From a virus, in IMG/VR virus record IMGVR_UViG_3300042906_001203, positions 1 through 45,877 of that record: 45,877 nucleotides of DNA, one strand, 5' to 3'. A program made the position numbers and the translations under genes. Of the stretch, positions 29,301 through 45,505 are shown one piece after another. The stretch's first letter is position 1, and each line of letters begins with the position of its first letter. The notes beneath the pieces were generated by a model. The model searched no databases. It worked only from the letters and a program-made list of their open reading frames with translations, and was not told the DNA's origin.

Positions 29301-32300
29301 AGAGTTTCCAATGTAGATAACGCAACTACATTTACTGTTAATGTTGGTGTTTCTACAATTGTTCACTCTTATGTAAGTGGTGGTACTGCTAAAAAAGTTC
29401 CAGTTGTAGAAAAAGTACCAACAATTCAAAAAATTCAATTCTATCCCGATCAACACCAAAGTGGTGTAAGAGACTTCGGTGTTATTTCCGCCGCATCTAC
29501 TACGACATTTTCAATTCGTGGAGAAAAGATAACCACTATTCCACACTACTATGTCGCTGGTGTAGGAGGAACTGCGGTTCTCAGTAAACCACAAATCTTC
29601 AAGTCTCCATATATTCAAAACTGTACGATTCTTTCCAGTCTTGGCGGTAATGGTATTCTTGTTGACGGTGATAAAGTAATTTCGCCGAATGTCCCTGCAG
29701 TCCAATTGCTTGCAGAGAATCCTCCTAGTGGAGCGATTCCAGAGTTTGGTAAGTCAATGGTTGCTGCAACCTTTACTATGATTTCCTTTGATGGTATTGG
29801 TTGGCGTGTAATCAACGATGGATATTCTCAGGTTGTTTCTTGTTTCCAAATCTTCTGCCGTTATGGATCTCTTGCACAGTCTGGTGGATATCTATCTATT
29901 ACAAACTCTGCAACAAACTTCGGATCTATCGCTCTAAGGGCAACTGGATTCTCTCCAAACGCATTCTCCTTCGATAAAGGTCGTGTTGCTGCTACTGGTA
30001 CTTCTGGTGGACTTCAGACACTCAAAGTTATTGGTGTAGGTAGAACAGAGCAAGATCTATATGTTCTGAGATTCTTAGATAACGCTGGCGTTGATAGAAC
30101 AAGTCTATTCAAACCAATTGTACAAGAATCAACTGTAAACCCAGCTGTAGGTGTTAATACCAACAGTGATGTAATTTCTATCGCTGGTCACCCATTTGCT
30201 GATGGAGACAGCATTGTTTATATCGGAAATGAACAGGCTGAACCAGCAATTGTTATTGATGGACTTGTAAACGGAAACACATACTATGTACAGTATATTG
30301 ATTCTGGTTCATTCAAGTTATTTGAAGATGACTCATTCAGAAGACCTACAGATTTGAGGTCTGCTCCTACTGGTATTAATACCTTCCAGAAGAATAATCA
30401 AGAATTTATTGTTGATGAGATCATTGATTCTCACGCACAATATCAGAGATTAACTCTCGCAAGTGCTGGATCTACAGCAATATTTAATTCTGGTCAAGAA
30501 ATTACTCAAACAGTAACTGGTGGAACTGCTACTGGATATGCATTAACATATCATAGTGGTACAAGAGAACTTGTTGTTTCAGTTGAAGAAGTTGGTGGTA
30601 CAAGAAGATTCTTTGCTACCTCCGGTGGAAACATTGTTGATCACGGACCATCTCCTATTGCTATTGGAGTTACTGCAGTTGTTGGAGTCACTACATTTAG
30701 AACAATCGAATTTAAAGTAGATTCAACATCTGTAGGAAATGTTATTCAGGGTATTGGTAATCTTCCAGTTACATATAGATGTAATCTACACAGACCTTCT
30801 ATTGTTAACTCCTCTTCACATACTTGGGAGTTCTCTGGATCTGGAACAGACTACAACGCACTTCCACAAAATAATGGTAAGGCTGATCCTGCAACTGAAC
30901 AGGTATCTGAACTTGGTGGTCGTGTATACGCTTCCGGTACTAATGAACTTGGTGACTTTAAGATTGGTGATCAAATCACTGCATTTAATAGAACTGGAAA
31001 CATTATCTTTAACAACAAAGTATCCATTGGAGAACTAGATTCTATTCGTCTGTCCCTGTCTGGTGGTGTTGCTGTTGAGGAATTCTCAACTGATACAAAC
31101 CTAGGCGAAGGAGAACTCGGAGGTCCACTCAACAAGAGAGTTTCAACTCAGTTAGCGGTTAGAAGTTTCATGTCGAACAGACTTGGAACTTTCATTGATA
31201 AGACAGTATCACAAAACGCAGTTCCAAACGCTGTTGTTCAGTTAAACTCTTCTGGTCAAATCAACGCAGACCTTATTCCACCAAAAGTTGTTAATTACAC
31301 CAAGACTAATGTATCTACTGGTAGAACAGTTCTCGTAAACCAAATTCCAGCAATTAATATTGCAAATGGTGATACAGTTGTTGAACCAGAACTATCATAT
31401 GTTCTTATTCAAGATGTTTTTGGTCAATATCTAATTCTTGATACTCCTACTGCAAGTTATAACTTTAATAATGGAGACACTGTAACTAGTGCTCTTGCAG
31501 CGGCTGCAATTGGTGTCGTTACAACTCCTCCAACCGGAATTGGAATTGGAACAACTATTTCTCCATATGTTGGATATGGTAACACTGGATTAGTCAAAGG
31601 TGTACTAAAACAAGTTACCATTCAAAATGGCGGATCTGGATATAGTGCAGCTGGTCTCTATACCTGTTTCTTACAGTCTACAACTGGTATTGGTACTTCA
31701 GCACTTGCAGAGGTTACAGTTGGTGCTTCTGGTACTGTAACTAGTGTTTCACTCAAAACTGGTGGTCGTTACTATGCATCTGGAAATGTTCTAACTGCTA
31801 TTGATTCTCAAGTTGGCGGTAGAAGTGGAGGCGCACAATTCACAGTAACTGCAACTGCCGTAGAAACAAGACTATACCTCAAGTTAACAAATCAACAAAA
31901 ATTCGCTGGTAGCGTATCACTTCCAGATTACATCGCTGATGGAAATGCAGTTGGAATTTCCACAACTCTAAACCTTGATGTTTCTTATAATATTGATCCA
32001 ACCACAATTGAAACTGGTGGAGCCGTTGACTTCCCGAATGATAGGGTTGTATTGGGTATTGGTCACACATTCCAAGATGGAGATCCAATCAAGTATGTAA
32101 CTAATGGTGGAACAAATATCACTGGATTAATTGAAAATACTACTTATTATGCAAAGAGAGTTGGTGTTTCTTCTGTAGAACTTCACTCAACTTATGCCCT
32201 CGTTTCCAGACAAGATCTTTCTGGTAGTGGAATTGGAACTCATTCCTTCATTAGATGTGGCGTATCCTCAATTAAAGATACAATTGTTTTCAAGAATCAT

Positions 32301-33659: not shown

Positions 33660-34258
33660 TGCCTGTATCAATTGCTGGAACTGGAATAAAATATTCCAAT
33701 ATTGCTTATAACCCTTATGGTTCCGAGTCCAATCCAACGCAGACAAGATGTAGTCCTATTGTAAAAATAAGATCTACGAGTGCAAGCACCATCAATCAAA
33801 CTACTGGTGGTGCTAGCCATACTTTTGTTAATGGAACTGAGATTGATATGGGAGTTCCGACTAAATCAACTAATTGGTATAGATGTTGTTATCAAACAAT
33901 CGTCGATGATTTGGATGGAAATTATGGTGGGATTGGATTTTCTATTTGGAGATATACTGCAAGTAGTGGATGGAATAGAGTTTTAGATATGGGAAGACAT
34001 GCATCATATGATGCTAACATGGGTGACTGGTATAGAAACCCAATGATCTTTGGTTATGTACCTGTCCACCAATCTTTCCCAACTCAACAACACTATTTTA
34101 GAATCTATGTTACAAACTATTATGGTACAAGTAATGTAAGAATTAATTGTGGTATTGGTAATGATTTATTGAGAAATGGTTGGATTAATAATATTTTTGA
34201 AGTATGGGAAATAGATGGTGATGGTATACATACAACTGGAACAATGTCGAGGTATTAA
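33659..34258 (+). CDS. Small adhesin-like protein, set A copy 1
   Basis: A 199-residue protein and the first of three tandem paralogues. It opens with a short tag (MPVSIAGTGIKY) of the kind that precedes distal domains in phage fibres. The body carries the set A signature: EIDMGVPTKSTNWY, RYTASSGWNRVLDMG-HA-Y, GD, HYFRIY, then RINCGIGNDLLRNGW and a final SRY. It is rich in Trp, Tyr, Asn and Gly. The start overlaps the tail fibre stop by one base (TAATG), so it is coupled to the fibre gene. This suggests a fibre-tip or receptor-binding accessory, but the family is not one I can name. Confidence 0.65.
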   Translation: MPVSIAGTGIKYSNIAYNPYGSESNPTQTRCSPIVKIRSTSASTINQTTGGASHTFVNGTEIDMGVPTKSTNWYRCCYQTIVDDLDGNYGGIGFSIWRYTASSGWNRVLDMGRHASYDANMGDWYRNPMIFGYVPVHQSFPTQQHYFRIYVTNYYGTSNVRINCGIGNDLLRNGWINNIFEVWEIDGDGIHTTGTMSRY

Positions 34259-34261
34259 TTC

Positions 34262-34819
34262 ATGCCAGTAACGATAGGTCCAAATAGCATAACATTTAAT
34301 AATGGATCTGTTCAATCAGTTCCTTCTGGATTTATTAAGTATAATAGTTGTTCTGCAACAACAACAGACCAATCTATTCAATCTGGTAACTGGGATTTTA
34401 TTAATGGAACTGAATTGAATATGGGAGTTCCAACTAAATCATCAAATTGGTATAGAGTTTCTTTTTATTCCTGTTCTGATGACTGGGGTGGTGCAAACGG
34501 TGGAGTTGGCATGGCTTTATGGAGATGGACGCCATCAACAGGTTGGAACAGAATTCTTGACCAGGGTTGGCACGCTCACTATGATAATAACTGTGGGGAT
34601 TTTTACACCAGCACACATGGAATATGGTATGTTCCAGTTCTAAATGCATCTGAACAACATGCATTTAGATTATATTGCAGAAGACATCCAGATGTTGCTA
34701 TGAGAATTAATTGTTCCATTGGTGCTGATCTCAGAAGAAATGGATGGAATAATAATATGTTTGAAATTTATGAAATAGATGGTGATTTAATTAACACAGG
34801 TAATCTTAGTAGATTTTGA
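34262..34819 (+). CDS. Small adhesin-like protein, set A copy 2
   Basis: A 185-residue paralogue of the genes on both sides. The tag is MPVTIGPNSITFNNGSVQS, which includes the I-x-F-x-x-G-S-x-Q pattern common just before fibre-tip domains. The signature residues are kept: ELNMGVPTKSSNWY, WRWTPSTGWNRILDQG, HAHY, GDFY, HAFRLY, RINCSIGADLRRNGW, SRF. It starts 3 nt after the preceding stop. Its first 11 residues are almost identical to those of the set B gene at 39314, although the rest of the two proteins is unrelated. Confidence 0.65.
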   Translation: MPVTIGPNSITFNNGSVQSVPSGFIKYNSCSATTTDQSIQSGNWDFINGTELNMGVPTKSSNWYRVSFYSCSDDWGGANGGVGMALWRWTPSTGWNRILDQGWHAHYDNNCGDFYTSTHGIWYVPVLNASEQHAFRLYCRRHPDVAMRINCSIGADLRRNGWNNNMFEIYEIDGDLINTGNLSRF

Positions 34820-34829
34820 GGAAAAATTT

Positions 34830-35393
34830 ATGGCAATAACTATAACTGGAAATGGAATACAATATCCAAGTGGACCTTCGCAAAATTATGTTCCTGGAAT
34901 TGTAAAAGTAGCTTTTACTTCATCTAGTGGAGTAAATCATAATAGTGGAACTGGTTTGGGTGGAGGTTGGCAACTTCCTGCGAACCTTGAAATTAATATG
35001 GGAGTTCCAGAAAAAGCAAGTAATTGGTATAAAGTTACTTGGTGGACAATTGCAGATGATCAAGGCGGTGGAGCTCAAGGAACCGGCGCTTCATTATATC
35101 GTTGGACGCCATCAACTGGATGGAACCGAATTCTAGATCAAGGTCACCATGCAACATTGGAAAATGATGTAGGAGATTTGTATTGGGGTGTAATTTGTCA
35201 TTATTGGGCTCCCGCAATTAACAATACCGAGGCACATGCTTTCAGGATTTACCATTCAAATTGGAATGGTCCAACAAGAATTAATTGTTCTATCGATACC
35301 GATTTAAGAAGAAATGGTTGGAATAATAACCAATTAGAAATTTGGGAGATGGATACAGCTTCCATAAATCCAAATAATTTAAGTAGGTATTAA
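34830..35393 (+). CDS. Small adhesin-like protein, set A copy 3
   Basis: A 187-residue third paralogue. The tag is MAITITGNGIQYPSG; the signature is EINMGVPEKASNWY, YRWTPSTGWNRILDQGHHA, GDLYW, HAFRIY, RINCSIDTDLRRNGW, SRY. It has a good GAGG ribosome binding site and starts 10 nt after the previous stop. Copies 2 and 3 are closer to each other than to copy 1 in the RINC region. Three different copies in one virion could give a heterotrimer or a choice of receptors; this is inference. Confidence 0.65.
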   Translation: MAITITGNGIQYPSGPSQNYVPGIVKVAFTSSSGVNHNSGTGLGGGWQLPANLEINMGVPEKASNWYKVTWWTIADDQGGGAQGTGASLYRWTPSTGWNRILDQGHHATLENDVGDLYWGVICHYWAPAINNTEAHAFRIYHSNWNGPTRINCSIDTDLRRNGWNNNQLEIWEMDTASINPNNLSRY

Positions 35394-35396
35394 ATA

Positions 35397-35404
35397 GATA
35401 AATA
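35397..35404 (+). promoter_or_regulatory. Late promoter box, variant GATAAATA
   Basis: One mismatch to TATAAATA, 23 nt before the ATG at 35428. A GGAG site lies between box and ATG. Confidence 0.4.
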
Positions 35405-35427: not shown

Positions 35428-35877
35428 ATGACATTAGATCCTTCTTTAAAATTTGACTCATTACGATTGCCAGTAATGGGTCATGCTCTTAACGAATTGA
35501 TTAAAGATTCAGATTATGATTGGAGTGGATGTTCAACTTTTGAGACTGAAGAGGAATATAAACAACTAAAGTGGGCTATGAAAAATGCTCCTCCAGAAAA
35601 ACAAGGAATTGATAAGTGGACTGGAGAACCATTGAATAGAGTTAGTGCTGAAGAAGCAGGTGCTCCATCTTTTGAAGAGATAAAATCAAAACATGATGAG
35701 TACATGGAGGAATATAATTTAGCCGCAGGAAAGAGAGAAAGAGTTAGACATTATCCAGAAATAAAAGAACAACTTGATATGTTATATCACGACATAGATA
35801 ATGGATTGTTAGGGGATCAAGCAAAAGAAAGTAATTTTTATACAACTATAAAGGAAATTAAAGATACTTATCAATAA
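35428..35877 (+). CDS. Small tail-fibre-assembly-type protein
   Basis: A 149-residue mostly helical protein. The C-terminal part (RVRHYPEIKEQLDMLYHDID, then a short acidic linker, then FYTTIKEIKDTYQ) matches a motif frequent in small proteins next to phage fibre genes, usually written YPSIGDQLDxLYHAxD and FYxxIKxVKxxYP. The N-terminal half has WSGCSTFETEEEY and KWAMKNAPPEKQG. Such proteins are often annotated as fibre-assembly helpers or minor tail proteins, but the function is not proven. It follows the set A adhesins and has its own late-like box and ribosome binding site. Confidence 0.6.
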   Translation: MTLDPSLKFDSLRLPVMGHALNELIKDSDYDWSGCSTFETEEEYKQLKWAMKNAPPEKQGIDKWTGEPLNRVSAEEAGAPSFEEIKSKHDEYMEEYNLAAGKRERVRHYPEIKEQLDMLYHDIDNGLLGDQAKESNFYTTIKEIKDTYQ

Positions 35878-35879
35878 TT

Positions 35880-36491
35880 ATGAATTGTTTTTTTGATTTA
35901 TTTTCGTTATCTTTTTATTATGAAAATAATAAAAGTTTATCCGAAGAACTTTTACCCATTTCAAAAAAAATATTGGGAGATAATTCCCTATTAACAAATG
36001 AATGGGGATATAAGAATACATATTCTCTAGATGAGGGACTATCAAAATTACCCGAGTTAAAGTTTTTTGTTGATATTATTTTAGACAGAAGTGCAATTTT
36101 ATATAAGAATTCTGGATATAAAATGAAAGATTCTTACAAGTTATGGACTTCAATTTTTACGAGTTCTATGAAGTCCGGCGATAAACACGATGCACACTCA
36201 CATCCTGGTGCGATATATTCGGGATTAATTTACTTACAAGTACCAAAAGGATCTTCACCACTACAATTTCAGGGAACAAAAGATTCTATTTTTAATACGG
36301 TATTTGAGAAAGAAATAAAAAAAGAAAATATTTTTAATTATGAGGAAGATGGTTCGATAACAATATATCCACATGAAGGAATGTTTTTAATGTGGGACTC
36401 TTGGGCCTTACATAGAGTTCCACAAAATAATATAGATACAGATGAAGAAAGAATTACTATGGTTTTCAATGTAGGTGTAGAAAAAAAATGA
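35880..36491 (+). CDS. 2OG-Fe(II) oxygenase, TIGR02466/PF13759-like (copy 1)
   Basis: A 203-residue protein. The double-stranded beta-helix core shows HDAHSHPGAIYSGLIYLQ with candidate iron ligands His106 and His108, a second ligand His178 in SWALHRV, and Arg191 in ERITMVFNVG for 2-oxoglutarate binding. The H-x-H-P-G-A and SGxxYL pattern is that of the putative 2OG-Fe(II) oxygenases common in marine phages and bacteria. The substrate is unknown. It starts 2 nt after the previous stop and its stop overlaps the next ATG (ATGA), so it is coupled to the second oxygenase. Confidence 0.75.
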   Translation: MNCFFDLFSLSFYYENNKSLSEELLPISKKILGDNSLLTNEWGYKNTYSLDEGLSKLPELKFFVDIILDRSAILYKNSGYKMKDSYKLWTSIFTSSMKSGDKHDAHSHPGAIYSGLIYLQVPKGSSPLQFQGTKDSIFNTVFEKEIKKENIFNYEEDGSITIYPHEGMFLMWDSWALHRVPQNNIDTDEERITMVFNVGVEKK

Positions 36492-37186
36492 AATTTAATA
36501 AAGATTATATATTTGAAGTGGAAGGACTTATTCCTACTTGGATGCAAGAATATTGGGATGAAATAATTTTAAATTGTGATAGGTGGAAATATGGATTGAG
36601 AGGATCACCAAATGATATTGAAAAATTTTTTGCAGTATGGATAAGTAGACCAGGAGAAAAACCATTTATAAATGACATTTCAAATATTGGTAGAACATTT
36701 AATGAAATGTGGCGTAGGGAGGGATTAAACTCTATTATTAAAGATGCTGTTATAGAACAAGTGCATAGAGTTCATGTAAATGGTACTATCCCATCAGATT
36801 CTTTTTTATCAGTTCATCAAGATTGGGAACCTCCAAATTTTTGGACCATGATATATTATGTTGGTGGTTATGATGGAGACACTGTTTTTTATGATGAACC
36901 AGATATTAATAAAGGGGAGATTGATTTTATAGAAAAATACAGAATACCCTTCAAACAGGGGAAAATTGTGTTTTTCCCCTCGTGCATTTGGCATAGAGCT
37001 GAATTGCCTTCTACAGGTCTTAGATCAACTTTATCGATTAATTATATTTTAAATGATTGTGATATAAACTTAAAAATTCAGGAAGAACGAGGAATTAAAA
37101 GAAATAATAAATTACCAGATGTTCCTGAGGAACTTAGAAAATTTGAAAATATTACTTTTGGTTTTGGTTCACTAAATCGACATTAA
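36488..37186 (+). CDS. 2OG-Fe(II) oxygenase with H-x-D motif (copy 2)
   Basis: A 232-residue protein of a different subfamily from the preceding one. It carries a textbook facial triad: His110 and Asp112 in SVHQDWEPP, His169 in SCIWHRAELP, plus Arg179 in LRSTLSINY for 2-oxoglutarate. The segment YYVGGYDGDTVFYDEP resembles small prolyl-hydroxylase-like enzymes. Translation is coupled to copy 1 through an ATGA overlap. Its last 35 nt overlap the 3' end of the minus-strand oxygenase. The substrate could be a protein side chain or a small metabolite. Confidence 0.75.
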   Translation: MKFNKDYIFEVEGLIPTWMQEYWDEIILNCDRWKYGLRGSPNDIEKFFAVWISRPGEKPFINDISNIGRTFNEMWRREGLNSIIKDAVIEQVHRVHVNGTIPSDSFLSVHQDWEPPNFWTMIYYVGGYDGDTVFYDEPDINKGEIDFIEKYRIPFKQGKIVFFPSCIWHRAELPSTGLRSTLSINYILNDCDINLKIQEERGIKRNNKLPDVPEELRKFENITFGFGSLNRH

Positions 37187-37820
37187 AAGCAACACTAACT
37201 CGGTCTTCATCTGTAGTATTTTTAACAGTACTATGAGCTAACCACGCTGGAAATAATATTATATCTCCATCTCTCGGTATAATTTCTATTGATTGTGGAC
37301 TTCTGGGGCCTTCTGGGAAGTAACAATTTTCCAACATAATATTGGGGTTTCTAAATTGTATTCCTCCCTGATCTGCATTTACTCTGAAATAGTAAACTCC
37401 AGATATTGTATATTGGGGATGAACATGGTAATCATGGAAAACACCCTTCTCTGCGATGTTGATCCATGAATTTTTTATTTCGAATGTCGCATCATTTATA
37501 GAATTTAATATTGGAGAAGAATTTAATGCTGACCATTGTGTAAGTTTAATGTAATGATCTACAGCTTCATATATTCGTTTTTCCAAGTTTCTTAAATTAT
37601 ACTTTTCTATTAATTGGTCAGAAACAAAATATCCACTTTCTGGTCTATTTCTTTTTCTTTCTCCAGCATCTTTGTAGATATATGATACACATTCTAAATC
37701 ATCTTCTTCTAAAATTTTGTTTAGACAATCACGAATTTCTATTTGCGTGATATCGTAATTATCAACTGTAGCTGGTTGTTTATAAACTGGAGTGGGAAAT
37801 AAATTAATCAAACCATACAT
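37152..37820 (-). CDS. 2OG-Fe(II) oxygenase, TIGR02466-like (copy 3, minus strand)
   Basis: A 222-residue protein on the opposite strand to the structural genes. The opening MYGLINLFPTPVY is the typical start of the TIGR02466 family. The core has SWINIAEKGVFHDYHVHP with candidate ligands His132 and His134, then SGVYYF, ILFPAWLAHSTV with His196, and DRVSVAFNV with Arg207. The family is common in marine T4-like phages; the substrate is unknown. Upstream it has an ACTATATAAT box of its own, shared with the other minus-strand oxygenase. It converges with copy 2 with a 35-bp overlap. Confidence 0.8.
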   Translation of the reverse strand: MYGLINLFPTPVYKQPATVDNYDITQIEIRDCLNKILEEDDLECVSYIYKDAGERKRNRPESGYFVSDQLIEKYNLRNLEKRIYEAVDHYIKLTQWSALNSSPILNSINDATFEIKNSWINIAEKGVFHDYHVHPQYTISGVYYFRVNADQGGIQFRNPNIMLENCYFPEGPRSPQSIEIIPRDGDIILFPAWLAHSTVKNTTDEDRVSVAFNVDLVNQNQK

Positions 37821-37832
37821 TGAAGTTCACCC

Positions 37833-37840
37833 TATAAATA
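37833..37840 (+). promoter_or_regulatory. Late promoter box TATAAATA
   Basis: An exact late box in the 60-nt divergent gap, pointing to the plus-strand gene at 37881 (40 nt to its ATG). Confidence 0.6.
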
Positions 37841-37856
37841 ATTTTAATTACACTTT

Positions 37857-37866
37857 ATTATATAGT
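37857..37866 (-). promoter_or_regulatory. Sigma-70-like -10 box ACTATATAAT for minus-strand oxygenase
   Basis: On the minus strand this reads ACTATATAAT and includes a perfect TATAAT, 37-46 nt before the start at 37820. I see no clear -35. The same ten bases occur before the other minus-strand oxygenase at 41510-41519. Confidence 0.5.
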
Positions 37867-37880
37867 TTTAAATTTGAATC

Positions 37881-38666
37881 ATGAGAACCATTTACTATGC
37901 TCCAAAAATTGAAAACTCTGGACCAAAGGGTTTTGAACACCCACTTCTAGAAGATGAAATTTTTATTCCAATAAAGCCATATCTATCATATTATAAAGAA
38001 CATCACGAAAAACATGTTTATTGGGAATGCCCTGCATGGAAAAAATACTATAAAAATTCTTTTGTAATATTTTCTCAATCAAATATAGAGGTTAAGTTTT
38101 CAAAAGATGATGGAGTTGTAGATCCCGAAACTTATGTCCATATGAATATTGATGAGGGATTTGCCATAAATGATATGAATTTATTTGGTAGAAGTATGTT
38201 GGGAGAAGATCCGACTACTACAGGGGTTATACATAACCCATTAAGGCCTCCGTATCATGGATTAATTATTGGACAACTTCATCAACATTATTTTTTCTGG
38301 ACAGAACCACAAGTTAAAACTTTATGGATTGAAATATTGCCGACAACTATTCCTATTCCTGGAGCCGAATTAGTTAGTGCAGAATATCCTGTTGGTAGGT
38401 GGATGAGGCCAACAATTTGCGCTTACAAATTTAATGAACCAACTATAATAAAAAGAGGAGATCCTATCGGCATTCTTAGATTTAGGAATTCTAAAAAATA
38501 TGATGAAAATTTCAAACTAGAAAGAAAACAAATTCCTCAAAATGTAATGAGAAAAGCATATAACCATAGCATATTAAAGAAATTTTTACCTAAAAAATCT
38601 TGGGATTTTATTAAAGATGAACCAAAAGAATCTAAATGTCCTTTTAGTAAACTTCGTTTGTGGTAA
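37881..38666 (+). CDS. Phage protein of unknown function, DUF6065-like (copy A)
   Basis: A 261-residue protein with no enzyme motif that I can identify. It has a beta-rich middle with FFWTEPQVKTLWIEILP, then WMRPTICAYKF and a closing TIIKRGDPIGILRFRN. This is the same strand plan as the 275-residue protein at 41551, where the closing reads VVLKDTPLMLIIPFRR. A SKCPFSKLRLW segment ends the protein; the other copy carries SKCPFAP near its N-terminus. The resemblance to DUF6065 is from memory and tentative. Both copies lie beside oxygenases, so a role linked to them is plausible. The start is 40 nt after a late promoter box. Confidence 0.5.
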   Translation: MRTIYYAPKIENSGPKGFEHPLLEDEIFIPIKPYLSYYKEHHEKHVYWECPAWKKYYKNSFVIFSQSNIEVKFSKDDGVVDPETYVHMNIDEGFAINDMNLFGRSMLGEDPTTTGVIHNPLRPPYHGLIIGQLHQHYFFWTEPQVKTLWIEILPTTIPIPGAELVSAEYPVGRWMRPTICAYKFNEPTIIKRGDPIGILRFRNSKKYDENFKLERKQIPQNVMRKAYNHSILKKFLPKKSWDFIKDEPKESKCPFSKLRLW

Positions 38667-38683
38667 AGTTTATAACCAATTGT

Positions 38684-38691
38684 AATAAATA
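38684..38691 (+). promoter_or_regulatory. Late promoter box, variant AATAAATA
   Basis: One mismatch to TATAAATA, 24 nt before the ATG at 38716. Confidence 0.4.
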
Positions 38692-38715
38692 ATATTACAA
38701 TAATAAATCGAATAT

Positions 38716-39309
38716 ATGGCTATTATATTGGGCGAAAGCTCAAATAGAATAAGATGTGATGGAAACATGACTATGAATGTTTCCACTAGCACTAATGTGG
38801 AAACATTCTTAAATAGTTTTGCTAGTGGAAATCCAAATCAACCTGCGTTCCAAGCTGCTGGAGCTGCCGATTCTTGGAGATATCTTGTTGCAAATACTTG
38901 GAACGAATTGGGAGTTACAGTTAATTTTAACTGGACTTGGTATCAAAGAGGTGCTAGTGGTGGTGGGATGAACTCTAACGGTAGATATTTTGCACCCAAA
39001 AGTGGATATTATTATTTTCATGCTGACATGTATCAACTTCAAGATACTAATAATACCGCAAACTATACTCATTTACTATTTGGGATTAATGGTAATGTGA
39101 GTTGGAATAATGGAAGAGTTCCCTATACAATATATGGTCATGGAAATTCTCAAGGAGTTGGAGGAGCTTACGCACATGGACCCAATATTTCCGCTATTAT
39201 GTTTTTAAGTGAAGGTCAATATTGTAGTCCATATATGTATAAGGGTAACTCTGGTAATACTAGAATTTATACAGGACATAGTTTCTTTTGTGGACACCTA
39301 ATTAGTTAG
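38716..39309 (+). CDS. C1q-like small adhesin, set B copy 1
   Basis: A 197-residue protein and first of three tandem paralogues. After a short tag (MAIILGESSNRIRC) the body fits a C1q/TNF-like jelly roll: PAFQAAG, WYQRGASGGGMNSNGRYFAPKSGYYYFHADMY, SAIMFLSEGQYCSPYM and a closing IYTGHSFFCGHLIS, which corresponds to the usual SxFSGxLL end of C1q domains. Such domains trimerise and often form receptor-binding tips. The GASGGGM stretch is glycine-rich. It is likely a fibre-tip protein or free adhesin of the virion. Confidence 0.65.
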   Translation: MAIILGESSNRIRCDGNMTMNVSTSTNVETFLNSFASGNPNQPAFQAAGAADSWRYLVANTWNELGVTVNFNWTWYQRGASGGGMNSNGRYFAPKSGYYYFHADMYQLQDTNNTANYTHLLFGINGNVSWNNGRVPYTIYGHGNSQGVGGAYAHGPNISAIMFLSEGQYCSPYMYKGNSGNTRIYTGHSFFCGHLIS

Positions 39310-39313
39310 AATC

Positions 39314-39883
39314 ATGCCTATTACAATCGGACCAAATAGTATTACAAGTAATGTAGATTTGGACATTAGACCAAATAATATCAGAAGTCTTTATTATTTT
39401 ACTACAGGACAAAGAATTTCTGATAGGACTCCTGCGTTTACGGCTATTGGAACCGTTGACTGGAGATATAGGGACCAATTTGGTCAAGGAGCTAACCCAG
39501 AAATTAACGGAACTATAGGTTGGACTTGGAATCAACAAGGAGCCGGATCATTTGGAATGAACTCTAATGGCAGATATTTTGCTCCTGTAACTGGAAGATA
39601 TTATTTTTATTTTTCCGCATATGCATATAATGATAATAATAGTACATCTAGTTATATGCATTTACATGTGACTAAAAATTCTGGTTATGGTTGGAATAAT
39701 GGAAGGCAACCCCACAATATATACATGCACGCAACCCCATATAATCATGAAGATGGAATCGTAACATCATGTAATATGCAATTAAATCAGGGAGAATATT
39801 GTGTTATAAGGCCTTATTGGAATGCAAATAGTTCTAGAATTTATGGAGCACATACCATGTTTGCTGGAGCACTCATTGGTTAA
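39314..39883 (+). CDS. C1q-like small adhesin, set B copy 2
   Basis: A 189-residue paralogue starting 4 nt after the preceding stop. The tag is MPITIGPNSITSNVDLDI, nearly the same as in the set A gene at 34262. The body has PAFTAIGTVDWRY, QQGAGSFGMNSNGRYFAPVTGRYYFYFSAY, LNQGEYCVIRPYW and a closing IYGAHTMFAGALIG. The pattern GRYFAPVTG-x-YYF is the conserved C1q-type strand pair. The three set B copies agree in strand order but differ in loops, as expected for receptor-binding variants. Confidence 0.65.
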   Translation: MPITIGPNSITSNVDLDIRPNNIRSLYYFTTGQRISDRTPAFTAIGTVDWRYRDQFGQGANPEINGTIGWTWNQQGAGSFGMNSNGRYFAPVTGRYYFYFSAYAYNDNNSTSSYMHLHVTKNSGYGWNNGRQPHNIYMHATPYNHEDGIVTSCNMQLNQGEYCVIRPYWNANSSRIYGAHTMFAGALIG

Positions 39884-39889
39884 TAAATA
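39882..39889 (+). promoter_or_regulatory. Late promoter box, variant AATAAATA
   Basis: One mismatch to TATAAATA. It overlaps the preceding stop and ends 25 nt before the ATG at 39915; a GGAG site follows. Confidence 0.4.
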
Positions 39890-39914
39890 TAACTAATAGG
39901 AGTTTTTTTCTGCC

Positions 39915-40502
39915 ATGGCTATCATAATTGGTTCCAATGAAATAAGATCCGATACTACAGAAATCCAATTTTTTGCAAATAATAATTATGTGCAATCAGT
40001 AAATCAGACTACTGGTAGAAGAACGGAATATCCTTCTTTTCATGCATCCTGCAATTTAGATGAATGGAGATATGCTGGTCAAATTGGATGTGGCCAGTGG
40101 AGAGAAATGGGTAACTGGGGATTTTCTACTGGAGGCCGATGGACAGTAAACCAAAGAGGTGCTGGTAGTTTTGGATTTGATACAACAAATGGTAGATATT
40201 TTGTTCCTGTAACTGGATACTATCAATTCGGAATGACAATGTATTACCTGGATGATGGTAATACATATCACTATACTCATTCTAATTTTGGTGTTAATGG
40301 GGGATTAAATTATAACAATGGTCGTCACGGACATTCAATCTTTAATCACCCCTCACATGGCAATTATGCTAAAGGTATAAATACAGAAAATATGATGTCC
40401 TTAACTCAAGGTCAATATGTATCTCCGCAACCATATACGAACTGCGGAAATCAAAGAATTTATATGGGACACTTCCATTTTTATGGTCAACTTTGCCCAT
40501 AA
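39915..40502 (+). CDS. C1q-like small adhesin, set B copy 3
   Basis: A 195-residue paralogue. The tag is MAIIIGSNEIRSDTTEI. The body has PSFHASCNLDEWRYAGQIG, NQRGAGSFGFDTTNGRYFVPVTGYYQFGMTMY, SLTQGQYVSPQPY and a closing IYMGHFHFYGQLCP. It keeps the C1q-like ending with Tyr-Gly in place of Ser-Gly. A clear GGAG site precedes the ATG, and a late box lies before that. It is likely the third member of a tip set with the two preceding genes. Confidence 0.65.
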   Translation: MAIIIGSNEIRSDTTEIQFFANNNYVQSVNQTTGRRTEYPSFHASCNLDEWRYAGQIGCGQWREMGNWGFSTGGRWTVNQRGAGSFGFDTTNGRYFVPVTGYYQFGMTMYYLDDGNTYHYTHSNFGVNGGLNYNNGRHGHSIFNHPSHGNYAKGINTENMMSLTQGQYVSPQPYTNCGNQRIYMGHFHFYGQLCP

Positions 40503-40505
40503 GCT

Positions 40506-40513
40506 TATAAATA
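40506..40513 (+). promoter_or_regulatory. Late promoter box TATAAATA
   Basis: An exact late box 25 nt before the ATG at 40539. Confidence 0.65.
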
Positions 40514-40538
40514 TTATCAAAACTAATAATTAAAGACA

Positions 40539-40880
40539 ATGGTAACTTTAAGTGTAGAACTAACTGATTTAGAATATGCTGCTTTAGCTCATATTGCAGT
40601 AGATCCCCATGATTGGTTCAGTGATATGGTAAAACTTCGTTGCAGAAATACCATTCATGAAGTAGCGGATTTGAAAATTAAAGAAATGATTGCAGATCCC
40701 TCTGTAGCTTCTATTCCTGCAGATAAAGAAGTAATTTTTGAAACTTTAGTAAATGATGGAGTTATCAAACCTGCCAGTCAAATGATGGAAGAGGAAGTTG
40801 AGAGAACTAAGATGTTGGTAAGTACTACTCAAGATTTAATTCCAGAAACTCCTGCACTTGATGGAACTAGACCTGTTTGA
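40539..40880 (+). CDS. Small tail-region protein, phage hypothetical
   Basis: A 113-residue protein. It opens with a short beta segment (MVTLSVELTDLEYAALAHIA) followed by DPHDWFSDMVKLRCRNTIHEVADL, then long helices with many acidic residues. Short proteins with this start, with a DEQY-type turn and a DWxxxxVxxRxR helix, are common next to phage fibre genes, but I know no proven function. It has its own exact late promoter. Its last 52 nt overlap the 3' end of the minus-strand oxygenase at 40829. Confidence 0.6.
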   Translation: MVTLSVELTDLEYAALAHIAVDPHDWFSDMVKLRCRNTIHEVADLKIKEMIADPSVASIPADKEVIFETLVNDGVIKPASQMMEEEVERTKMLVSTTQDLIPETPALDGTRPV

Positions 40881-41479
40881 TAATCAAAAAGTAAATTAAA
40901 GGATATAGTTATTCTATCTTTTATACACTTATTTACGGAGTGTATTAACTCGGAAGGAAAAAATATTATATTTCCTTCTTCAATATGTGATGTTGAGAAA
41001 ACACTTCCAACATCACATATTTTATACTTGTATCCAGAGTGGTTATTAAAAAACATAGTAGTATTTGGTTCATCCAATTCCAATAAATAAATTCCAGACA
41101 AACTAGCTCCACTGTGAGCATGGAGTTCTTGGGAATATCCAGGTTTATATACATTAAACCAAATTTCTGGTATGATTATATTATCCGGTTTATTCGGGAA
41201 TAAATTTTTATTTTCAAATAATTCATTCAAAGGATTTTCTATGATGGATGTAATTATTTTTTCGGTAAAAATTTTTTTTATATTTTCTTGGTGAAAATAA
41301 CTAGTAATAACTTCACAGTTCCATTTATTTTCTGTTATTTTTCTTTCATTCAATGGAGAATTATAATACTTAAAGTTTTTACTTTCTTCTAAAATTTTAT
41401 TTTTCAATTCTTTTTTTATTTCATGATGATCTTTTACTTCAGTCCAAAAAATAAAAGGAGAGGGCCAAGTTACTAACAT
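40829..41479 (-). CDS. 2OG-Fe(II) oxygenase, TIGR02466-like (copy 4, minus strand)
   Basis: A 216-residue protein. The opening MLVTWPSPFIFW is the family-type N-terminus. The core shows IWFNVYKPGYSQELHAHSGASLSGIYLLE with candidate ligands His120 and His122, then IIFFPSELIHSV with His180, and DRITISFNL with Arg189. It is more diverged from copy 3 than from typical marine-phage members, so it is not a fresh duplicate. A minus-strand ACTATATAAT box lies 31-40 nt upstream. The C-terminal ~17 residues are encoded opposite the end of the preceding plus-strand gene. Confidence 0.8.
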   Translation of the reverse strand: MLVTWPSPFIFWTEVKDHHEIKKELKNKILEESKNFKYYNSPLNERKITENKWNCEVITSYFHQENIKKIFTEKIITSIIENPLNELFENKNLFPNKPDNIIIPEIWFNVYKPGYSQELHAHSGASLSGIYLLELDEPNTTMFFNNHSGYKYKICDVGSVFSTSHIEEGNIIFFPSELIHSVNKCIKDRITISFNLLFDYQTGLVPSSAGVSGIKS

Positions 41480-41509
41480 AAATTAATAAGGGTATATATT
41501 AACAATTAA

Positions 41510-41519
41510 ATTATATAGT
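41510..41519 (-). promoter_or_regulatory. Sigma-70-like -10 box ACTATATAAT for minus-strand oxygenase
   Basis: A perfect TATAAT on the minus strand within ACTATATAAT, 31-40 nt before the start at 41479. It is identical over ten bases to the box at 37857-37866, and no clear -35 is seen. Confidence 0.5.
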
Positions 41520-41550
41520 GACAATCTAAAATTATCATTTCGGTGAATTT

Positions 41551-42378
41551 ATGTTCAAAAAGAAAAATATTATTCAATTTTGTGCTTCAGATCAAGCAAA
41601 AGGCATTCCCAACATTTATCCGGCATACAAACAATTTCCAGAGTGGTTTTTAAAAAGTAAAAAACCTTCTTCAGAAAAATCTAAATGCCCTTTTGCTCCA
41701 ATAATGAATTTCAATCCTCTTGGGAGTAGAAGTTCATTAGCTGCAGGAGAAAATCCATACACTCTGATGAAAGACAGTACTGTACATCATTGTCCAGGAA
41801 TTGTTGACTATCTAAAAACGGGATACATATTACCGGCTTGGAGTGATATGTGTTTTAGGATGATTAATGGAGAAATGAAATTTGAATCGGCTTTAGAAAC
41901 GCCGGAGTTAAATTATAATATTCATAGATTTAACCAATTTCAAGGAATGACTTATGATCAAAAACCAAAGATGGGAATGTTTCATAAGGTATCTAGTCCT
42001 TGGTGGATTAAAACAAGTCCAGGTGTATCTGTTTTAATTACTGATCCATATTGGAATAGAAATAAAAATTTTACATCAGTATCAGCAGTTGTTCATCCTG
42101 ATATTACCCCAATTCATTTGAAGTGGTTTTTTGAATTTAATTATTCAATTCAAGAATCTCCGGAAATTTATGATCAGAAAAAACAGGTAGTATTGAAGGA
42201 TACTCCTCTCATGTTAATTATTCCTTTTAGGAGGACATCTTTTGATCATGAAATTAATTTTTTATCTAAAGAAAAATTATCTGAGATACATAGAGATAAT
42301 TACTACGGATCAATTTCTTGGTTTACTGATACCATTTATAATAAGTTCAGAAAGCGTTTAAACAATTTTTATAAGTAA
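41551..42378 (+). CDS. Phage protein of unknown function, DUF6065-like (copy B)
   Basis: A 275-residue protein. It has IIQFCASDQ near the start, a SKCPFAP segment, HHCPGIVDYLKTGYILPAWSDMCFRM, then FHKVSSPWWIKTSPGVSVLITDPYWNR, LKWFFEFNY and VVLKDTPLMLIIPFRR. This order (substrate-like pocket strands, a P-W-x-I-x-T-x-P-G turn, a final IPF strand) is familiar from a phage family annotated DUF6065 or similar; that assignment is from memory. It is placed 12 nt before the halogenase ATG, so the two are probably one operon. It may be a partner or a substrate carrier of the halogenase, but that is only inference. Confidence 0.5.
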   Translation: MFKKKNIIQFCASDQAKGIPNIYPAYKQFPEWFLKSKKPSSEKSKCPFAPIMNFNPLGSRSSLAAGENPYTLMKDSTVHHCPGIVDYLKTGYILPAWSDMCFRMINGEMKFESALETPELNYNIHRFNQFQGMTYDQKPKMGMFHKVSSPWWIKTSPGVSVLITDPYWNRNKNFTSVSAVVHPDITPIHLKWFFEFNYSIQESPEIYDQKKQVVLKDTPLMLIIPFRRTSFDHEINFLSKEKLSEIHRDNYYGSISWFTDTIYNKFRKRLNNFYK

Positions 42379-42390
42379 TTGGAGATTATT

Positions 42391-43947
42391 ATGAGAATTA
42401 ATAAAATTGTCATTGTTGGTGGTGGTAGTTCTGGTTGGATGACAGCTGCTGCTTTATGTAAGAATTTTCCAGATATGGATGTAACTCTTATTGAATCCAA
42501 AGATATTAAGACAATGGGAGTTGGTGAATCGACATTAGGTCAATTTAACAATTACTTGCAGTTAATTGGATTAACTGATGATAGTAGTTGGATGAAGGAA
42601 TGTGATGCAACTTATAAAGTTTCCATTAAATTTACAGATTTTAGAGAAACTGATACTGTTTTCCAATATCCATTTGGAATTCATGGCGCAGACCGTATGC
42701 AAAGAGGTTTGGATGCATGGCCAATTTTAAGACAGATTGATCCAGAATATCATACATTGGATAAATTTGCTAAATTTTATAATCCCATTTCATACTTATC
42801 TGAAAAAAATAAATTAACAAAAAATGAAGATGGTGGTATTCCAAACTTTTTCTTTGAAAAGGATACTGCATATCATCTAGATGCAACAAAATTTGGAATT
42901 TATTTGAAAAATAACATTTGTTTACCTTCTGGTATGACTCATATTGTTGAAGATGTTGTTGATGTTTGTCAAAAAGAAGATGGAGAAGTTGATTATATAC
43001 TTACGGAATCTGGACAAAAATTAACTGCTGATCTTTTCATTGATTGTACCGGATTTAAATCTTTATTACTAGAAGAAAAGATGGGATCAAAATTCATTTC
43101 TTTTGGTGATACATTATTAAATGATCGAGCTCTTGCTACTAAAATTCCATATTCAGATCCAAATGAAGAAATGGAAAATACCACCAATTGTACAGCAATT
43201 GAAAATGGGTGGGTTTGGAATATTCCACTGTGGAGTAGAATTGGTTCTGGATATGTTTATTCTAGTAAGTTTGTTTCTAGAGATCAAGCTGAAATTGAGT
43301 TTCGCAACCATCTGAAAAAAACAAAGAAAAATATTCCAGATGACTTAGAAATGAAAGAAATTTTTATTCGTCATGGTAAAAGAGAGAAAGCCTGGGTAAA
43401 AAATGTTTTAGGAATAGGACTTTCATATGGTTTTATTGAACCTTTGGAATCTACTGGATTATTAACCACACATGATAATATTTTCAGATTGGTTAAAACT
43501 TTAACTAGAAGGAATAGATTTGTTTCGGGTATTGATAAATCTATTTTTAATACATATCTTGATTATACTATGGATGGCGTAAGATCATTTATTGAAACTC
43601 ATTATGGACTATCAATGAGAGGAGATACTGATTATTGGAAACATGTAACTTCCATTGAATATCATAATGAGTATGATGTCCAACAACTTGAAATTAATAT
43701 TTTTAGACAATCAAACTTTAATGGATTGATTGGTGGTATGCCTTATATTGCTGCTGGTATGGGATACTTACCAACATATAAAGTGGGCAGAGGTTTGCCG
43801 GGATCAGGAGAACTTCCTTATGAAGAAATTGAACAATTTAAAAATATCAATAGAGAGTTTAAAATGTTTCATGATACTATGGTTTCTTATGTTAATGGAT
43901 TACCTACACATTATCAATTCTTAAAAGAAACAATTTATCAAGATTGA
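42391..43947 (+). CDS. Flavin-dependent halogenase (tryptophan halogenase family)
   Basis: A 518-residue protein from the ATG at 42391, which has a GGAG site 6 nt before it; a longer TTG start at 42379 would hide that site. Motifs are intact: the FAD-binding GGGSSGW at 10-16, the TMGVGEST loop at 41-48, Lys76 in ECDATYKVSIKF (equivalent to the catalytic lysine 79 of PrnA), WVWNIP at 274-279 (the WxWxIP signature), and FIEPLESTG at 348-356 with the conserved glutamates. Family enzymes use FADH2 from a reductase, oxygen and halide to form a bound haloamine at the lysine. A related enzyme from cyanophage Syn10 (VirX1) was described as preferring iodide. No flavin reductase is seen here, so host FADH2 is probably used. 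The substrate is unknown. Confidence 0.9.
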   Translation: MRINKIVIVGGGSSGWMTAAALCKNFPDMDVTLIESKDIKTMGVGESTLGQFNNYLQLIGLTDDSSWMKECDATYKVSIKFTDFRETDTVFQYPFGIHGADRMQRGLDAWPILRQIDPEYHTLDKFAKFYNPISYLSEKNKLTKNEDGGIPNFFFEKDTAYHLDATKFGIYLKNNICLPSGMTHIVEDVVDVCQKEDGEVDYILTESGQKLTADLFIDCTGFKSLLLEEKMGSKFISFGDTLLNDRALATKIPYSDPNEEMENTTNCTAIENGWVWNIPLWSRIGSGYVYSSKFVSRDQAEIEFRNHLKKTKKNIPDDLEMKEIFIRHGKREKAWVKNVLGIGLSYGFIEPLESTGLLTTHDNIFRLVKTLTRRNRFVSGIDKSIFNTYLDYTMDGVRSFIETHYGLSMRGDTDYWKHVTSIEYHNEYDVQQLEINIFRQSNFNGLIGGMPYIAAGMGYLPTYKVGRGLPGSGELPYEEIEQFKNINREFKMFHDTMVSYVNGLPTHYQFLKETIYQD

Positions 43948-43948
43948 T

Positions 43949-44638
43949 ATGAAAAATGATTACTTAATCGTAAAATTTTTGGATGAGGAAGATCTAAAAA
44001 ATGTTCAAAAATTTTTAGATCTTTCTGTTGATACTGATTGGGATACGGGATTAAAAACATACTATGGAGATCCAACTACAAAAAACAATCAAGAACTGGT
44101 AAATTATTACATAAAAGAAAAAATTTCAAAGCCGATTTATGAATCAATTGACACCAATAAAAAATTTGTAAATTTTTGCTTTCCTAAAAAAATAGAAGAT
44201 ACTTTAGTTACCAGAACTAAAGAAGGTGGGTATTATAATACTCATGTGGATATAGGATTTAATGGTCATTTTAGTGTAACTGTGTTTCTTTCGGATCCAT
44301 CCACTTACGAAGGTGGAGAACTTTGTTTTTTCATGAATGATGAAGAAGTTAAGATAAAATTAGAACCTGGATTTGGTATTGTTTATCCAACTGGTATACC
44401 ACATAGAGTCAACAAAGTAACCAAGGGTCACAGAGATGTTTGTGTATTTTGGGTAAAATCTCTTATTAAAGATCCATTCATAAGAGAAATATGTTATGAG
44501 TTGAATGAATTAAATCTTGATGAGGAAACTTCAAATACTGTAAAAACAGATGAAGATTTTAAAAAGGTTATAAGTCAAGCAGGATTCAAAGTTAATGATA
44601 TATTTCATAGGTTAATACGAAGATACGCGGACATCTAA
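43949..44638 (+). CDS. PKHD-type 2OG-Fe(II) hydroxylase (PiuC/YbiX-like)
   Basis: A 229-residue protein. The core shows GGYYNTHVDIG with His99 and Asp101, TVFLSDPSTYEGGELCF, PTGIPHRVNKVTKGHRDVCVFWVKSLIKDP with His152 and Arg162, then a helical tail with REICYELNEL. These are the family signatures of PKHD hydroxylases, whose bacterial members often lie by iron-uptake genes. The length fits the family (about 220-230). The start is 1 nt after the halogenase stop, so the pair is almost certainly cotranslated. The two oxidative enzymes may act on the same substrate. Confidence 0.85.
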   Translation: MKNDYLIVKFLDEEDLKNVQKFLDLSVDTDWDTGLKTYYGDPTTKNNQELVNYYIKEKISKPIYESIDTNKKFVNFCFPKKIEDTLVTRTKEGGYYNTHVDIGFNGHFSVTVFLSDPSTYEGGELCFFMNDEEVKIKLEPGFGIVYPTGIPHRVNKVTKGHRDVCVFWVKSLIKDPFIREICYELNELNLDEETSNTVKTDEDFKKVISQAGFKVNDIFHRLIRRYADI

Positions 44639-44640
44639 AT

Positions 44641-44648
44641 TATAAATA
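44641..44648 (+). promoter_or_regulatory. Late promoter box TATAAATA for gp13, overlapping a terminator stem
   Basis: An exact late box 26 nt before the gp13 ATG. Its last three bases are the first three of the hairpin at 44646-44669, so the expected start point (about 6-8 nt after the box) falls inside the hairpin's 5' arm or loop. Confidence 0.7.
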
Positions 44649-44674: not shown

Positions 44675-45505
44675 ATGGCGCAACCATCTAGTAGAGCGGA
44701 GTTGAAAGATTACTGCCTCAAACAATTAGGAAAGCCCGTTTTAGAAATAAATGTAGATGACGATCAGATCGATAATTTAATTGATGATGCAATTCAATAT
44801 TATCATGAACGCCATTTTGATGGTATTGATCGTGTATTTTTAAAACACAAACTTACCCCTGCAACTAAAACAACATTAGCTCAACCAGGGCCAGTAGGTT
44901 CTGCATCTACTTCAGGTAGCGTCGTTGGAGCTGGATTGACTTCACTTACTTATGTTGAAGGAGTCAATTACTTGCCTCTTCCAGATAGTATTATTGGTGT
45001 AAATAATATTCTTAAGATCAATTCCAGTACAATTTCAGACGGTCTTTTTAATATTAAATATCAGTTATTCTTAAATGATGTTTACTATTATGGTGCATTA
45101 GATCTTCTTAATTATGCAATGGTCAAAAGGTATCTTGAAGATTTGGATTTTCTTTTGAATCCTCATGCACAAATCAGATTCAATAAGAAGAATCATAAAT
45201 TATATCTTGACATTGATTGGTCTCAAGTTGGCGAGAATGAATATGTTATTATTGATTGTTATAGAGTTCTAGATCCATCAGATGCACCAAAACTCTACAA
45301 CGATTGGTGGTTAAAAAAATACCTCACTGCTCTCATCAAAAAACAGTGGGGACAGAACATGATTAAATTCAATGGAGTCTTACTTCCAGGTGGAGTTCAG
45401 TTGAATGGAAGACAGATCTATGATGATGGAGTTGCCGAAGTAGAAAAATTGGAACAACAACTTAAGGATGAATACGAATTACCACCACTTGATCTCATAG
45501 GTTGA
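44675..45505 (+). CDS. 13: Neck protein gp13 (head completion)
   Basis: A 276-residue protein. The opening (RAELKDYCLKQLGKPVLEINVDDDQIDNLIDDAIQYYHERHFDG) is a well-conserved signature of cyanophage-type gp13, and YYYGALDLLNYAMVKRYLEDLDFLLNP and WWLKKYLTALIKKQWGQNM are further conserved blocks. T4 gp13 is 309 residues and joins the portal to the neck after DNA packaging, together with gp14. The next gene is gp14 with the start 1 nt after this stop, keeping the T4 order 13-14. Expression is likely set by the overlapping promoter and hairpin just before it. Confidence 0.92.
   Translation: MAQPSSRAELKDYCLKQLGKPVLEINVDDDQIDNLIDDAIQYYHERHFDGIDRVFLKHKLTPATKTTLAQPGPVGSASTSGSVVGAGLTSLTYVEGVNYLPLPDSIIGVNNILKINSSTISDGLFNIKYQLFLNDVYYYGALDLLNYAMVKRYLEDLDFLLNPHAQIRFNKKNHKLYLDIDWSQVGENEYVIIDCYRVLDPSDAPKLYNDWWLKKYLTALIKKQWGQNMIKFNGVLLPGGVQLNGRQIYDDGVAEVEKLEQQLKDEYELPPLDLIG

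Follow-up and report, generated by a model that had tools for sequence, protein, structure and literature searches.

The virus record IMGVR_UViG_3300042906_001203 of IMG/VR is a stretch of 45.9 kb (positions 1 to 45877; hereafter the window) from a marine T4-like myovirus, with genes for a baseplate wedge, a tail fibre of 2448 amino acids and the neck genes gp13 and gp14. Between the end of the fibre gene (33659) and the start of gp13 (44675), the window encodes six small adhesins in two paralogous triads (here called tips), together with all members of a set of tailoring enzymes. Profile searches place at 35880–44638 five 2-oxoglutarate (2OG)-Fe(II) oxygenases, one VirX1-type flavin adenine dinucleotide (FAD) halogenase and two related DUF6065-like proteins, exactly as an earlier note on this DNA had listed them. 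Here, we show that tip genes, a small gene and an enzyme block follow one another in a conserved arrangement. The best-supported mechanism is that the enzymes act on the tips, to which we assign a probability of roughly one half, and the island may accordingly be viewed as a candidate tail-tip maturation module.

That the arrangement recurs came from a survey of 210 halogenase loci, 88 of which were kept after dereplication at 80% identity. A gene was counted as a tip if its product had 180–560 amino acids and more than 19% glycine with a GGG run, or if it matched the profile of either tip family of the window (TIP or FIB). A recognisable tip lies within eight genes of the halogenase in 42 of the 88 loci; it is transcribed toward the enzymes in 40 of them and only away from them in 2 (binomial 2e-10), to be read with the caveat that many contigs are short and that the halogenase loci have common ancestors. 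Counted by gene, 61 tips within this distance point toward the enzymes and 3 away (n = 64), and exactly one small gene separates the last tip from the first enzyme in 48 of the 64 cases. In loci fetched after the rule was fixed, glycine-rich tips occupied 8 of 268 upstream positions versus 0 of 235 downstream positions (p = 0.006). A random scatter of the enzymes relative to the adhesins in related genomes, which the earlier note had set against its own proposal, is therefore not what we find: the placement is non-random, the blocks standing directly behind the tip genes and one small gene, or convergent with them, in 40 non-redundant loci against 2 the opposite way.

The blocks behind the tips in these 40 loci consist of 200 oxygenases (OX), 63 halogenases (HAL), 19 DUF6065-like genes and 32 further oxygenase, carbamoyltransferase or glycosyltransferase genes, giving 314 modification-type genes against 24 others, and a block may hold from 1 to 16 enzymes. 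The order spans cyanomyoviruses and unrelated tailed phages, and it is shared by unrelated types of tip: glycine-rich (phrog_863 tail fibre, PF21722), C1q-like, FIB and the type seen in loci L011 and L015. In the isolates Syn10, S-RIM44, Sf-FP1, S-WAM1, P-RSM6 and S-CREM1, the fibre is followed by glycine-rich tips in 2–3 copies and a p149-type small gene, behind which comes a block made up of one or two halogenases and several 2OG genes; most of these phages also have a DUF6065-like gene there. Two small genes and then gp13 come after the block in S-RIM44 and Sf-FP1, so that it occupies the same genome position as in the window. All 12 records of Syn10-type glycine-rich tips come from phages with a VirX1-like halogenase. 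A DNA search for the whole island among isolates gave gp13 of Synechococcus phage S-SCSM2R (77%) as its sole match. Some blocks also have inward-pointing tips at their far end, with the enzymes between convergent tip modules (L204, L216, L219, L107, L109, L111, L118).

Two other samples bear on the association. Across 11 cyanophage genomes, with tip positions entered by hand from annotation tables, 32 of 87 phrog_81 (2OG) hits fall within 8 kb of a tip marker where 7.6 were expected, and none of 20000 rotations reached that count. For the five of these genomes that had been reached by way of p149 or a tip and not by way of the halogenase, the count was 12 of 34 near a tip marker versus about 3.1 expected. 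Among gp13-centred relatives with at least 3 kb of upstream sequence, 47 of 55 have neither tips nor enzymes there; the association of tips with enzymes in this sample has a Fisher p of 0.019 with few positives, L015 being a missed triad.

The earlier note had described the enzymes of the window as alternating, or interleaved, with six small adhesin genes. Six such genes are present and the enzymes do sit among tip genes; only three of the six (38716, 39314 and 39915) lie within 35880–44638, the trio at 33659–35393 being just upstream, and the alternation is only apparent. It reduces to two tip triads from different families, FIB (33659–35393, phrog_8195) and TIP (38716–40502, phrog_15750), each with a single small gene (35428 or 40539) and then enzymes behind it. 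The features are as follows.

26313–33659, + strand: long tail fibre, 2448 amino acids (open reading frame), with a C-terminal S74-type intramolecular chaperone, presumably so from its sequence motif; by fibre comparison, without the pre-S74 receptor-tip insert of enzyme-free relatives
33659–34258, + strand: tip triad 1, slot 1 (FIB, phrog_8195)
34262–34819, + strand: tip triad 1, slot 2 (FIB, phrog_8195)
34830–35393, + strand: tip triad 1, slot 3 (FIB, phrog_8195)
35398–35404, + strand: T4-type late-promoter motif ATAAATA, 24 bases 5' of the small gene
35428–35877, + strand: small tip-associated gene, phrog_8886, probable tip chaperone judging from its place behind a tip gene in every isolate examined
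35880–36491, + strand: 2OG-Fe(II) oxygenase A (PF13759, 6.8e-18)
36488–37186, + strand: 2OG-Fe(II) oxygenase B, HxD...H...R (HQD...H...R) (PF13640, 4.7e-4; phrog_274, 2.6e-19)
37152–37820, − strand: 2OG-Fe(II) oxygenase C (PF13759, 2.1e-21; TIGR02466 above cut-off)
37834–37840, + strand: late-promoter motif ATAAATA
37881–38666, + strand: DUF6065-like protein 1 (by family membership)
38685–38691, + strand: late-promoter motif ATAAATA
38716–39309, + strand: tip triad 2, slot 1 (C1q-like, phrog_15750)
39314–39883, + strand: tip triad 2, slot 2 (C1q/TNF fold model)
39883–39889, + strand: late-promoter motif ATAAATA
39915–40502, + strand: tip triad 2, slot 3 (C1q-like)
40507–40513, + strand: late-promoter motif ATAAATA
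40539–40880, + strand: second small gene (p113), found after C1q-like triads in L089, L091, L092, L107, L108 and L109
40829–41479, − strand: 2OG-Fe(II) oxygenase D (PF13759, 1.4e-11)
41551–42378, + strand: DUF6065-like protein 2, with a dUTPase-like fold model
42391–43947, + strand: VirX1-type FADH2-dependent halogenase (PF04820, 3.5e-104; VirX1, 2.6e-142)
43949–44638, + strand: 2OG-Fe(II) oxygenase E, PKHD/YbiX type (PF13640, 1.8e-9; PKHD/YbiX-type NCBIfam, 2.5e-40)
44642–44648, + strand: late-promoter motif ATAAATA before gp13
44675–45505, + strand: neck protein gp13 (flank, outside the module)

The enzymes of the window look intact. The halogenase aligns over residues 2–516 to VirX1 of cyanophage Syn10 (PDB: 6qgm) and keeps IVGGGSSGW (FAD-binding GxGxxG), GWVWNIP (WxWxIP), TYKVSIKF (YKxxIxF) and IEPLESTGL (EPLEST), motifs that we take to include the catalytic Lys (in YKxxIxF) and Glu (in EPLEST). 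Each of the five oxygenases matches a family profile of Pfam, phrog or NCBIfam, and all five translations retain the distal His and Arg. The proteins at 36488–37186 and 43949–44638 have HxD...H...R, and the three PF13759 members have H-x-H...H...R, like their solved relatives. The former of the two HxD proteins is weak by Pfam (21.5 bits against a cut-off of 27 bits), yet clear by phrog_274; the label DNA endonuclease V attached to phrog_274 was rejected, the motif being that of a 2OG oxygenase.

Compared with L091 and L092, both of which keep the whole gene order, the ratio of nonsynonymous to synonymous substitution rates (dN/dS) is 0.03–0.15 for nearly all enzyme genes, with too few changes in oxA and oxD against L091 for a judgement, and these values indicate strong purifying selection. 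In L091, the unk8-HAL-pkhd group has a dS of 0.75–0.87 relative to the window against at most 0.33 in the surrounding genes, so it was probably exchanged as one unit. The site of this recombinational swap is L091:9161–12245, the rest of L091 being nearly identical to the window here.

The two DUF6065-like proteins (37881–38666 and 41551–42378) belong to one family. Neither matches the Pfam model DUF6065 (PF19541), and the label given by the earlier note is nevertheless fair because 7 of the 33 members of their shared family do, at best with 5.3e-34. The fold model of the second protein has a predicted local distance difference test score (pLDDT) of 73.7, and its top Foldseek matches are all dUTPases or dCTP deaminases (best E 2.3e-3), with a superposition of Z 10.1 over 119 aligned residues at a root-mean-square deviation (rmsd) of 2.7. 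By eye, only stretches like PGxxDxD and GTPLxxxIPF stand out in the consensus of the family alignment, and the window protein has no DxD. True dUTPase activity was rejected, the dUTPase motifs being missing; by its predicted model, the protein is a relative of dUTPases in fold, and we treat it as a putative accessory. A sequence search of the family against solved structures gave no convincing match. Members are also found in tailed viruses of haloarchaea (L177, Halorubrum phage HF2).

On the side of the presumed substrate, the model of slot 2 of the TIP triad (pLDDT 70.3) is a C1q/TNF jelly-roll: Foldseek matches it to the C1q domain of Caprin-2 at 2e-6, with a superposition of Z 14.5 over 134 residues at an rmsd of 2.5, and the C1q B head gives Z 14.2. 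Proteins of this fold assemble as trimers, one example being C1q with its A/B/C hetero-trimer. Tandem tip paralogues always number two or three, never more, in several unrelated families (33659–35393 and 38716–40502 in the window; L006, L007, L011, L105, L107, L109, L111, L118). The sequences suggest that hetero-trimeric tips of three chains may have arisen repeatedly. A single ancient A/B/C set of tips is unsupported, because in the tree of tip triads the glycine-rich ones seem to have been triplicated separately within several lineages; slot-wise orthology across distant phages is unresolved in that tree. A tblastn search found no homologue of the C1q-like tips in isolated phages, and glycine-rich tips had no convincing match among solved structures by sequence. 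In S-CREM1 (L174:9832–10511), the first of two glycine-rich tip genes looks truncated, with an open reading frame of 122 amino acids that stops within the glycine-rich region.

The position of the small gene is constant: it stands after the tip gene in every isolate examined, which is why we consider the product of 35428–35877 probably a tip chaperone. Two small genes that other phages have at the equivalent place were compared by sequence with solved structures, and neither had a match. In L010, a near-identical backbone whose gp13 is 99% identical, a single fibre of 3242 amino acids has an insert of ∼300 amino acids before S74 and there are no tips or enzymes, whereas the window fibre lacks the insert. 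This contrast is only suggestive, since L011 has such an insert in spite of carrying a triad and one oxygenase.

The timing of expression is suggested by the motif ATAAATA, which we take to be the core of T4-type late promoters. The window has 15 copies where chance alone would give 33.9; 14 of them are on the coding strand, and nine end 21–44 bases 5' of a gene start. The genes so preceded include those for the fibre, gp13, two tips and DUF6065-like protein 1, as well as both small genes, the first of which is followed by oxygenases A and B. No copy stands directly before the unk8-HAL-pkhd group, and a scan for sigma-70 promoters gave no excess over shuffled sequence. The placement of the motif before gene starts points to late expression, together with virion assembly.

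Blocks in other phages hold additional enzymes. The block of Sf-FP1 has a JmjC_2 protein (1.2e-19), a family known for ribosomal-protein hydroxylases. Carbamoyltransferases in the blocks carry both Pfam domains and are never more than five genes away from the halogenase (30 of 30 cases); hydroxylation followed by carbamoylation would be a chemically coherent sequence. In L212 (2481–4166) and L221, a gene of 558–561 amino acids adjoins the halogenase. A C-terminal methyltransferase is all that Pfam recognises in its product, and the N-terminal half resembles by eye a U32-type iron-sulfur protein. Divergent oxygenase-like families that Pfam leaves unnamed occur as well (L007:14980–15744 and L204:9236–9880, one of them a weak match to DUF6445), and the published numbers of 2OG genes are therefore probably underestimates.

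Several observations weigh against tips as the substrate. No recognisable tip was found in 46 of the 88 halogenase loci, many of them short contigs and some real exceptions. Proximity alone is modest (64 of 367 near versus 9 of 108 far) among loci that are not phylogenetically independent. Some cyanophages have tips and the small gene with no enzyme block behind them, and 2OG genes also lie far from tips within the same genomes. A pelagiphage-type variant places the halogenase and oxygenases within a sugar cassette adjoining gp13. VirX1 reportedly acts on free small aromatics (a study listed among the references of PMC10452541), so that peptides would be putative substrates only.

The wide spread of 2OG genes would suit a recombination hot spot at the tips that collects unrelated auxiliary metabolic genes for 2OG turnover, nitrogen signalling or DNA repair. 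Cyanophage 2OG genes have been read as nitrogen-status or DNA-repair functions (PMC3037559, PMC9146016) and as general host reprogramming (PMC9602691; see also PMC9964418). We consider such cargo unlikely, as the blocks are almost purely modification-type enzymes without the usual psbA, hli or talC, their order and orientation are fixed relative to the tips, and unk8-HAL-pkhd was co-exchanged.

The pelagiphage-type loci keep alive a second alternative, namely that the enzymes tailor lipopolysaccharide or other surface sugars of the host, for example in superinfection exclusion or receptor masking. In these loci (L038:1351–9963; also L026, L030, L037, L040, L046 and L047), an ADP-heptose-like cassette of nucleotidyltransferase, PfkB kinase, epimerase, carbamoyltransferase and heptosyltransferase-like genes lies directly upstream of gp13, several with halogenase and oxygenases, and the constant nearness of carbamoyltransferase to halogenase noted above speaks for the same idea. 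Such sugar genes are, however, absent from the window and from most tip-linked blocks, the promoter motifs indicate expression that would be late for remodelling the host surface, and the coupling to tip genes is tight, so we regard this explanation as unlikely, to much the same degree as hot-spot cargo. The host surface and a signal molecule, both named as alternative targets in the earlier note, would be less probable targets than the tips.

A small-molecule pathway, in which the enzymes make a toxin, signal or protectant that is both halogenated and hydroxylated (chlorotryptophan or a relative of pyrrolnitrin, for example), would agree with the action on free aromatics ascribed to VirX1. 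Even with the PrnA-type role proposed for the S-CREM1 halogenase (PMC9964418), we find it improbable, for the window block has no carrier protein, synthetase, transporter or flavin reductase, the varying number of enzymes per block leaves no constant pathway set, and the linkage to tips is consistent.

We argue that modification of the tips accounts best for the island. The receptor-binding tips would be built as separate small proteins, in triads of paralogues (FIB and C1q-like) that could assemble as hetero-trimers, each triad with its probable chaperone behind it and co-expressed tailoring enzymes behind that. The 2OG/Fe(II) oxygenases would hydroxylate side chains, the VirX1-type halogenase would halogenate aromatic side chains with reduced flavin supplied by the host, and the DUF6065-like protein with its dUTPase-type fold could be an accessory. 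The tips would be modified during virion assembly, most likely at exposed loops, and we infer that the outcome could be altered receptor binding, stability or resistance to host counter-adaptation. The earlier proposal that the genes form one system linked to virion tips thus holds in its association with the tips and is only partly supported as an overall interpretation. More tentatively, at odds just short of even, a widespread system made up of a VirX1-type halogenase, 2OG arrays of up to about a dozen, DUF6065 proteins and sometimes carbamoyl- or glycosyltransferases may covalently modify glycine-rich or C1q-like tail tips, often assemblies of three paralogues, during assembly; we would hold with the same slight reserve that this is the native role of VirX1 and of many unexplained cyanophage 2OG oxygenases.

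Cyanophages commonly have several 2OG oxygenases (up to 24 per genome) and many have a halogenase, the role of both being unproven. Were the tips the substrate, the host range of a phage would depend on adhesin chemistry in addition to adhesin sequence, and virion proteins that bear halogens or added hydroxyl groups would represent a kind of viral modification not seen before. The candidates to examine, in isolates already cultured, are the tip proteins encoded one small gene upstream of the enzymes.

The halogenase of cyanophages has been read as a possible antibiotic step (PMC9964418). Our literature search, with the original paper on VirX1 outside it, found no link of these enzymes to tail tips, and within the literature searched the order of the module appears undescribed. 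The closest known system is VirX1 itself: in Syn10, a halogenase pair stands at the equivalent place, behind glycine-rich tips and a p149-type gene, and is followed by DUF6065-like and 2OG genes. VirX1 differs in that it was investigated as a biocatalyst on its own, and the literature searched names neither its native substrate nor a link to tail tips. The 2OG oxygenases of cyanophages (24 in S-SCSM1, 10 in S-CREM1) belong to the same families as those of the window (PF13759, PF13640 and TIGR02466) and were published as metabolic or DNA-repair auxiliary genes, whereas those of the window form a tip-linked block. Flavin-dependent halogenases that act on ribosomal peptides are known from the pathways of ribosomally synthesized and post-translationally modified peptides; these enzymes, MibH and SrpI, are a precedent for the halogenation of peptides and differ in serving bacterial natural-product pathways rather than virion assembly. 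For a tip with a small chaperone, the solved precedent is phage Pam3, where the receptor-binding domains of the trimeric fibre gp24 are TNF-like and glycine-rich, and gp25 is its small dedicated trimeric chaperone; Pam3 differs in its single fibre gene, and the portion of that report drawn on here describes no modification enzymes (PMC9608196). That a phage modifies its own virion proteins is a principle shared with the glycosylation of mycobacteriophage virions by phage glycosyltransferases (see the note on Maravista, PMC11256854), which differs in that sugars rather than hydroxyl groups or halogens are added, mainly to capsid or tail bodies and not to receptor tips.

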